A stretch of 64,000 nucleotides of DNA, taken from assembly GCF_016908145.1 (NCBI RefSeq), contig NZ_JAFBDI010000008.1, positions 1-64,000 on the forward strand, in the 5' to 3' direction. Below, piece by piece: positions 31,445-62,985 of the stretch. Position 1 is the first letter of the stretch; each line of letters opens with the position of its first letter. Source of the DNA: Marinitoga litoralis. Lineage in GTDB: Bacteria; Thermotogota; Thermotogae; Petrotogales; Petrotogaceae. Below the pieces are notes generated by a model. It was not told the origin of the DNA and did not search any database. It saw only the letters and a list, made by a program, of their open reading frames with translations. The position numbers and the translations under genes were made by a program.

Positions 31445-32743
31445 TTATGGATATACTCTATATAATGTTCTTGCAAATGGAATTGCTTCCCTAATATGTT
31501 TTAAACCACAAATCCATGCAACAGTTCTTTCTATACCAAGACCAAATCCACTATGAGGAACAGAACCAAATTTTCTTAAATCAAGATACCATTGGTATTC
31601 TTCAACTGGTAAATTATTTTCTTTTAATCTTTCTATTAATACATCTTCTTGCCAAATTCTTTCTGAAGCTCCTATAATTTCACCATAACCTTCTGGAGCA
31701 ATCATATCATCACATAATACGACATCTGGATTTTCTGGATCTGGTTGCATGTAAAATGCTTTTACTGCTCTTGGGTACTTTTCTATAATTACAGGTTTAT
31801 CAAATTCTTCAGAGATTAATGTTTCATCATCAGCGCCTAAATCGTCTCCCCATTTAATATCGGATCCTTTTTTATTTAATAATTTAATTGCTTCTGTATA
31901 TGTAATTCTTGGGAATGGTGCTTCTATTTTTTCTAATTTTGAAATATCTCTATCTAAAGCAATTAAATTTTCTGATGCATTTTCTAATACTTTCTTTACA
32001 ATATATGATACTAATTGTTCTTGTAATTTCATATTATCTTCGTGTGTATAATATGCAACTTCAGCTTCATTCATCCAAAATTCTATTAAATGTCTTCTTG
32101 TTTTTGATTTTTCTGCTCTAAATGTAGGTCCTAAATTATATACTTTTCCAAGTGCTAAAGCTGCTGCTTCTAAATATAATTGTCCTGTTTGAGCTAAATA
32201 CACTTTTCCATAATCAAAATAGTCTATTTCAAATGTATTACCAGCACTTTCTCCTATAGATCCTGTAAATATTGGAGTATCAACTAAAGTGAATCCGTTG
32301 TTATTATAAAATTCTCTGATAGCTTTTAAAATTTCATGTCTAACTCTTAAAATATGGAATTGTCTTCTAGATCTTATCCATAAGTGTCTATGTTCCATTA
32401 AAAAATCAATTCCATGTTCTTTATTTGATATAGGATAATCTTCATTTGGATTATGAACAATTTCTACATCATCAATATGCAATTCAAAACCAACAGGAGA
32501 TCTTTGATCTTCTACAACAGTACCTCTAACAATTAAAGAACTTTCCATTTTTAATTTTTTAACTTCTTTATATTTTTCTTCACCTAATGTGCTTTTTTCA
32601 ACAATACCTTGTACAAAACCTGTTCCGTCTCTTAATTGTAAAAACGCAATTTTTCCACTAGCTCTTTTATTCCATAGCCAGCCTCTAAATTCAACTTTTT
32701 GTCCTAAATATTTCTTCATATCTTTGATATATACCCATTCCAT
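31445..32743 (-). CDS. asnS: Asparaginyl-tRNA synthetase
   Basis: A 432-residue class IIb aminoacyl-tRNA synthetase. The N-terminal OB-fold anticodon domain (VEFRGWLWNKRASGKIAFLQLRDG, about residues 18-41) is followed by the catalytic core, with motif 2 in FRAEKSKTRRHLIEFWMNEAE and motif 3 in GFGLGIERTVAW near the C-terminus. The start at 32743 follows GGGAGGGAG and matches the family N-terminus MEWVYI. A separate AsnRS-like protein without the anticodon domain is encoded at 61754-62707. Confidence 0.96.
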   Translation of the reverse strand: MEWVYIKDMKKYLGQKVEFRGWLWNKRASGKIAFLQLRDGTGFVQGIVEKSTLGEEKYKEVKKLKMESSLIVRGTVVEDQRSPVGFELHIDDVEIVHNPNEDYPISNKEHGIDFLMEHRHLWIRSRRQFHILRVRHEILKAIREFYNNNGFTLVDTPIFTGSIGESAGNTFEIDYFDYGKVYLAQTGQLYLEAAALALGKVYNLGPTFRAEKSKTRRHLIEFWMNEAEVAYYTHEDNMKLQEQLVSYIVKKVLENASENLIALDRDISKLEKIEAPFPRITYTEAIKLLNKKGSDIKWGDDLGADDETLISEEFDKPVIIEKYPRAVKAFYMQPDPENPDVVLCDDMIAPEGYGEIIGASERIWQEDVLIERLKENNLPVEEYQWYLDLRKFGSVPHSGFGLGIERTVAWICGLKHIREAIPFARTLYRVYP

Positions 32744-32776
32744 GCTTTCTCCCTCCCAAAATTTCAATTTTTATAT

Positions 32777-61753: not shown

Positions 61754-62707
61754 TTATATAGAATGTTTTCCTGGAGTTTTAGCAAATAAACGAGTATTTT
61801 CTACATGATCTAATCCTAGTATCCATCTAGTAAATCTTTCCACACCAATTCCGCAACCAGCAGAATGTTTTAATAATCCAGCTTTAGCAACTTTTAAATA
61901 TTCTTCAAATTCTTCAGGTGGAGTATTTTTTAATTTCATCCTTTTTATTATTTGTTCGTATTCATGTTCTCTTTCACCACCGGAAATAGCTTCTTCAAAA
62001 CCCTCTGGATATATTAAATCGAAATCAAGCAAAACTTCAGGTCTTTCTGGGTCTTGTTTGTCATAAAATTCCCTTTCCATTAAAGGAATATCTATCATCC
62101 AAAATGGTTCATCAACATCTAAAGAAGCTTTTTTTTCGTAATCATCACCATATTTCTCTTTTAATTCTTTTACAGTATATCTTTTAAATGGTTTTGAAGG
62201 AGTTTTTAATGTAGGATGATACTTTTCTATAATATCAGGATATTTTTCTTTAATTTTTTCAACGGTATAAATTATAGCATCTTCCATAACATCAAATACC
62301 TCTTCTCTTGAAGCTTCTAGCATTTCCATATCAATTTGTACAAAATCAAATAAATGTCTTCCGGTATTCATTTTATCCTCTGTTTCTAATCTAACATTAG
62401 GAGATACAATATAAATTTTTTTATGAACCAATACGGCTACTTGCTTATGTAATATCATAGATTTTGTAACAGAATACTTTTGTCCATAGTATTCAAATTC
62501 AGTTCCAAAATGTGGATGATTCAATGGATCAGTAATTGGTGAAACGGTAACTGGTAGCAATTCAACAAAGCCCTTTTCATCTAATACTTTTCTAATGCTT
62601 CTTAATATTTCTGCTTGAACAATAGTTGCCTCTTTATAAACTGGGTTTTCCAAATACTCTTTAACTAATTCTACAGTATCAACTTTTCTACTTTCTACAG
62701 ATTTCAT
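61754..62707 (-). CDS. AsnRS-like class II core protein, probable asparagine synthetase (AS-AR type)
   Basis: A 317-residue protein that resembles the catalytic core of AsnRS/AspRS but has no anticodon-binding OB domain. Motif 2 is in NVRLETEDKMNTGRHLFDFVQIDME (about residues 118-142) and motif 3 in GIGVERFTRWILGLDHV near the C-terminus. In archaea such an AsnRS paralogue (AS-AR, studied in Pyrococcus abyssi) makes free asparagine from aspartate and ammonia. A leader peptide with eight Asn codons and an attenuator immediately upstream supports that role. ATG at 62707 follows GGGAGAGGG; the earlier in-frame TTG lies inside this site. A true AsnRS is encoded at 31445-32743. Confidence 0.82.
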   Translation of the reverse strand: MKSVESRKVDTVELVKEYLENPVYKEATIVQAEILRSIRKVLDEKGFVELLPVTVSPITDPLNHPHFGTEFEYYGQKYSVTKSMILHKQVAVLVHKKIYIVSPNVRLETEDKMNTGRHLFDFVQIDMEMLEASREEVFDVMEDAIIYTVEKIKEKYPDIIEKYHPTLKTPSKPFKRYTVKELKEKYGDDYEKKASLDVDEPFWMIDIPLMEREFYDKQDPERPEVLLDFDLIYPEGFEEAISGGEREHEYEQIIKRMKLKNTPPEEFEEYLKVAKAGLLKHSAGCGIGVERFTRWILGLDHVENTRLFAKTPGKHSI

Positions 62708-62785
62708 AATACCCTCTCCCTTCAAAAATATTAAAATAATAATCTCTCCCTCTCCGAAAATAATATTTTTTTAATTATAAGATAA

Positions 62786-62864
62786 TAAAAAAACCGGCGC
62801 TGAAATAAAATCCAGCGCCGGTGTAATTATAAACGACAAATTACCTCGCGTTACACCAACGCTG
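62786..62864 (-). promoter_or_regulatory. Asparagine attenuator: competing antiterminator and terminator
   Basis: On the minus strand the terminator pairs ACCGGCGCTG (62822-62813) with CAGCGCCGGT (62802-62793), then a T-run to about 62787. The antiterminator pairs CAGCGTTGGTGT (62864-62853) with ACACCGGCGCTG (62824-62813): 12 consecutive pairs, two of them G-T. A third hairpin, GCGTT/AACGC, can sequester the antiterminator strand. A ribosome stalled in the Asn codons leaves the antiterminator strand free; a ribosome at the leader stop covers it and the terminator forms. About 80 nt separate the terminator from the gene. Confidence 0.85.
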
Positions 62865-62927
62865 TATGTTATTATTATTATTATTATTATTTAAATTTTC
62901 AATTTTTATGAATTTTATATTTAACAT
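62841..62927 (-). CDS. Leader peptide with eight consecutive Asn codons
   Basis: A 28-residue frame: ATG at 62927-62925 with Shine-Dalgarno AGGTGG, then residues 13-20 are eight Asn in a row (seven AAT and one AAC), followed by IQRWCNAR and TAA at 62843. Outwardly the run looks like an ATT microsatellite, but reading frame, ribosome binding site, a consensus promoter upstream and an attenuator downstream show a control peptide that senses charged tRNA-Asn. It ends in Ala-Arg-stop like the leader at 43530-43658. Confidence 0.88.
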   Translation of the reverse strand: MLNIKFIKIENLNNNNNNNNIQRWCNAR

Positions 62928-62956
62928 ATGTAACACCACCTAAATATTTTTTTCTT

Positions 62957-62985
62957 ATTATACAACAAAATGAATATATTGTCAA
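62957..62985 (-). promoter_or_regulatory. Consensus sigma-70 promoter of the asparagine leader
   Basis: TTGACA (62985-62980) and TATAAT (62962-62957) are both perfect consensus hexamers with a 17-bp spacer. The start site would be near 62950, about 23 nt before the leader ATG. The -35 overlaps the stop codon of mutL. Confidence 0.85.

Follow-up and report, generated by a model that had tools for sequence, protein, structure and literature searches.

A candidate asparagine-responsive attenuator upstream of an AS-AR-type asparagine synthetase gene in Marinitoga litoralis and other Thermotogota

Background

Classic attenuation of the E. coli type operates through leader peptides in the trp, his, leu, thr, phe and ilv operons. 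T-boxes also regulate amino acid genes by a choice between terminator and antiterminator. Class II aminoacyl-tRNA synthetase paralogues have been taken into other roles, HisZ and EpmA being examples, and AsnRS itself requires free asparagine. The closest described enzyme is the archaeal asparagine synthetase A (AsnA, here AS-AR). According to PMC3532385, which cites Blaise and others, this enzyme originated from AspRS, anchors aspartate by two arginines and activates its beta-carboxylate. A comparative study of attenuation by Lopatovskaya and others (2010) is cited in PMC4833913.

We analysed a 64,000-nucleotide stretch of a Marinitoga litoralis contig, below called the window. A sequence-only reading had pointed there to an AsnRS paralogue lacking the anticodon domain, preceded by a leader with asparagine codons, as a probable synthetase of free asparagine in a bacterium.

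Results and discussion

The synthetase gene and its family

The gene and its ribosome-binding site are located as follows.

61754..62707, minus strand: predicted AS-AR-type asparagine synthetase, 317 amino acids, class II core only (ORF, Pfam, NCBIfam, tree and residues)
62712..62722, minus strand: ribosome-binding site AAGGGAGAGGG upstream of the ATG at 62707

The open reading frame starts with the ATG at 62707, and an in-frame TTG is also present at 62725. The sole Pfam domain is tRNA-synt_2, with no match to an OB or anticodon-binding domain, which bears out the description of the protein as a bare class II core. The normal AsnRS said to lie elsewhere in the window is a full-length gene of 441 residues (31445-32767, minus strand). 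Three full-length relatives are encoded in the genome, namely AspRS (592 residues), LysRS (505) and AsnRS (441).

The nearest named relative of this genome is Marinitoga lauensis (86%), and scans of genome and viral contigs for close relatives yielded M. lauensis and, apart from it, a single weak match from Clostridia. The AS-AR frame of M. lauensis (L038 / L057) is broken by two stops, due either to an assembly error or to decay of the gene.

Among solved structures the best match was archaeal asparagine synthetase A of Pyrococcus abyssi (3p8t; 198.6 bits, residues 17-314), compared to 113.5 bits for the best AsnRS structure. The NCBIfam equivalog NF005054, "asparagine synthetase A", was clearly passed (424.5 bits, cut-off 309). 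In a maximum likelihood tree of 71 proteins, a branch with 100/100 support sets 45 Thermotogota AS-AR proteins and two from Pyrococcus (47 rows) apart from all AsnRS, AspRS and LysRS proteins; the phylogeny that had been proposed as a check thus places the protein with AS-AR. Since archaeal-type AspRS was left out of this tree, the parent synthetase of AS-AR is not readable from it.

Numbering from the ATG at 62707, K88 and Q89 are kept in AS-AR and correspond to K and Q in AspRS and mostly to L and E in AsnRS. Similarly, Q124 and D126 correspond to Q and D in AspRS and mostly to M and E in AsnRS. In the position-by-position comparison, the segment S242-G-G-E-R246 is conserved with AS-AR, as are R106/E108 of motif 2 and E290/R291 of motif 3 (E290-R291). 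In AspRS, aspartate is bound by the K, Q, D and R of the corresponding pocket positions. Loss of such residues had been named as a ground for giving up the assignment; they are present, the pocket being judged from the alignment alone (the single-sequence AlphaFold model has pLDDT of 43.7).

The assignment of the paralogue to AS-AR is upheld by the best structure, the equivalog, the 100/100 clade and the AspRS-type pocket. Its presentation as an unusual case was right as to the family and overstated as to rarity, since an NCBIfam equivalog already names such proteins asparagine synthetase A. The family name is already in NCBI annotation models and is not new. By its family, the gene product is predicted to be an ammonia-dependent asparagine synthetase.

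Other routes to asparagine

Absence of asnA and asnB from the genome had been proposed as a check. No asnA was found; one asnB-type gene is present (G000:C10), in an NRPS-type cluster. Its neighbours (L101 6589-14886), named by reading and not by a family search, are an MFS transporter, an adenylation/condensation NRPS-like protein, a short-chain dehydrogenase and a radical-SAM-like protein. A regulated asnB doing the job would have spoken against the synthetase. This sole asnB has no Asn leader; it could contribute to asparagine supply.

Across the phylum, AS-AR scores above the model cut-off in 45/103 genomes. The asnB-type genes are patchy (27/103). Neither asnA nor asnB was found in 25 of the 45 AS-AR genomes, 17 of which are at least 99% complete, and all these 17 also have an AsnRS match. 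AS-AR would thus fill the asparagine pathway in genomes without asnA and asnB.

In families f8 and f9, and in most of f10, many Thermotogota encode AsnRS and lack AS-AR, with asnA and asnB mostly absent as well. Two proteins with weak AsnRS matches, L116 (473 residues, G006) and L118 (460 residues, G053), are placed by the tree outside the clade of AsnRS.

One might suppose that the leader is real and ties the gene to asparagine supply, and the enzyme makes another product, be it an activated form of aspartate or asparagine that feeds a side reaction, or the amide of some other substrate. The activity ascribed to this particular protein is a prediction, and class II paralogues have been recruited elsewhere, as in HisZ and EpmA (PMC3532385). 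However, the protein sits in a characterised clade and has the AspRS-type pocket, and no asparagine synthetase besides AS-AR was detected in the 17 nearly complete genomes with AsnRS. We consider another product very improbable. The specific reading as an EpmA-type EF-P lysine ligase, previously listed among possible refutations, was rejected, as the protein scored 22.2 bits with the NCBIfam model (cut-off 264) and groups with AS-AR.

The leader region and its alternative hairpins

The region between mutL and the synthetase gene contains the following elements, all on the same strand as the gene.

62957..62985, minus strand: sigma-70 promoter TTGACA-17-TATAAT with 12/12 matches, overlapping the end of mutL
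62936..62940, minus strand: GGTGG, likely serving the leader as ribosome-binding site, from the sequence
62841..62927, minus strand: leader peptide ORF of 28 codons, MLNIKFIKIENLNNNNNNNNIQRWCNAR followed by a stop, from the ORF reading
62868..62891, minus strand: control codons, eight Asn in a row, 7 AAT and 1 AAC
62851..62864, minus strand: 5' arm of the antiterminator, CAGCGTTGGTGTAA, within the last codons of the leader
62813..62826, minus strand: 3' arm of the antiterminator, TTACACCGGCGCTG, overlapping the 5' arm of the terminator
62793..62822, minus strand: intrinsic terminator of -22.7 kcal/mol, with a 12-bp stem ACCGGCGCTGGA/TTCAGCGCCGGT and then TTTTTT

The antiterminator arms (62851-62864 with 62813-62826) pair over 14 bp with an energy of -24.5 kcal/mol, compared to -22.7 kcal/mol for the terminator. 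The two helices are mutually exclusive, as the same stretch serves as the 5' arm of the terminator. The fold of the leader region is more stable than those of shuffled sequences (z -4.09). When the 3' half of the terminator is withheld, the predicted fold is the antiterminator; when the end of the leader is covered, or the whole stretch is free, it is the terminator.

The Asn-codon leader of the sequence-only reading thus exists, with eight Asn codons and a terminator after it. Its use as regulatory evidence for the function of the enzyme is upheld: the Asn run is combined with a promoter and two exclusive helices, and the leader and helices recur in relatives. By its layout, the upstream region would follow the logic of a ribosome-mediated attenuator of the trp type, read by asparagine.

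Among 49 genes of the window, only the synthetase is preceded by a short Asn-rich ORF and a terminator. An Asn-rich leader was seen neither before 16 AsnRS genes nor before 20 AsnA/AsnB genes, some of which were read with an approximate start codon and a short upstream stretch.

Conservation in Thermotogota

The DNA upstream of AS-AR could be read at 46 loci, and 41 of these have an Asn-rich leader, in families f1, f2, f4, f7 and f11. The threshold for a leader was three Asn or more within nine residues, and four to nine is usual; the counts combine script calls and reading by eye. Four further loci (L040, L044, L049, L050) retain an eroded leader in which two Asn are left at the corresponding position. 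In one, L017, the Asn run is absent.

In L017 (G035) both leader and terminator are gone, and the upstream region carries a duplication as well as an insert rich in GC.

The leader peptides have diverged except for the Asn run and the codons of the antiterminator arm (QRR, QRW, GPGSVG, DIGR). Start, stop and usually a recognisable ribosome site are in frame with the run, and AAT and AAC are mixed in many of the runs. Pairing between the end of the leader and the 5' arm of the terminator is better than in shuffled sequences at p<=0.02 in 40/43 loci. In 17 sequences of family f1, four pairs of the terminator (14 cells) and four pairs of the antiterminator (13 cells) are changed on both sides, above shuffles and slid controls; as these sequences are related, the covariation is support rather than proof. 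Scanning the phylum for one rigid DNA pattern of leader and terminator gave no match; the spacing in the pattern was too short for this negative to be informative.

The AS-AR protein of L008 (G019, family f2) falls inside family f1 with support 99/97, which suggests that the gene and its leader moved together by transfer.

The upstream element might alternatively be an Asn T-box or another riboswitch sensing uncharged tRNA, with the Asn-rich ORF incidental, since T-boxes too govern amino acid genes by terminator/antiterminator choice. However, neither the window nor 12 related loci gave a match to a T-box or other Rfam regulatory family, T-box stems would not fit into so short a leader, and the conserved part is an in-frame run of Asn codons with a start, a stop and synonymous mixing of AAT and AAC. 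We rejected this reading, whose probability we put at very little. Nor is there much to be said for the AAT run as a simple repeat of an AT-rich genome, with the terminator belonging to the upstream mutL and no regulation at all: the run is indeed mostly AAT in this genus, and the genome has five other runs of at least six Asn codons, but these are located within genes or in unremarkable intergenic DNA and have neither leader nor terminator, mixed AAC/AAT runs stand at the same place in other families, the neighbour is not conserved (mutL here, riboflavin genes in G042), and the terminator is downstream of both the leader and a perfect promoter. This explanation was likewise rejected as scarcely credible.

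Proposed mechanism

We consider it highly probable that an AS-AR asparagine synthetase gene is controlled here by ribosome-mediated attenuation read by asparagine, with the activity, the stalling and the change of expression as predicted components; this confidence derives from the family, residues, leader, promoter, exclusive helices and conservation computed here. RNA polymerase would begin at the promoter at 62957-62985, with a ribosome trailing on the leader. When Asn-tRNA is ample, the ribosome would clear the eight Asn codons, reach the stop codon and mask the 5' arm of the antiterminator, so that the terminator hairpin forms and transcription ends ahead of the synthetase gene. If charged Asn-tRNA runs short, stalling of the ribosome at the Asn run would leave this arm exposed, the 14-bp antiterminator would form first, and transcription would enter the gene. 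The enzyme, judging by the chemistry of its family, would use ATP to activate the beta-carboxylate of aspartate, and ammonia would then free asparagine.

The open-access literature searched contained no report of an Asn leader peptide or attenuator and none of attenuation in Thermotogota, with older attenuation papers thinly covered; as many of these are outside the search, this absence is weak evidence. We lean, with some reserve, towards an undescribed class of Asn-sensing attenuators, of sufficient age for five families of Thermotogota to share it and acting on AS-AR as the sole source of newly synthesised free asparagine in many of these bacteria. Asparagine would apparently be a further amino acid to which attenuation by a leader peptide responds; for this phylum, the papers searched describe little such control. 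The recurring switch provides independent, phylum-wide regulatory evidence that bacterial AS-AR paralogues make free asparagine. The newer part is the Asn attenuator, its anatomy and its spread in the phylum, not the identity of the enzyme.

Comparison with known systems

AsnA (PF03590) and AsnB (PF00733) are expected to give the same product as AS-AR. AsnA of this type forms a branch separate from the AS-AR described here and is absent from the genome, and AsnB has a different fold and uses glutamine. The model NF005054 (PRK06462.1-4), which the protein passes, is an annotation only and is silent on regulation.

The AS-AR of P. abyssi (3p8t/3p8v/3p8y; Blaise et al. 2011, cited in PMC3532385) has the same length, core and pocket and belongs to the same 100/100 clade. 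The gene described here differs in being bacterial, from Thermotogota, and in lying behind a candidate Asn leader attenuator, its asparagine synthetase activity being predicted.

The trp, his, leu, thr, phe and ilv attenuators likewise have a short leader with control codons, an antiterminator arm at the 3' end of the leader and a terminator before the gene. In contrast to these attenuators of the E. coli type, the control codon here is that of asparagine, and the region precedes just one target gene, for an asparagine synthetase, in a member of Thermotogota.
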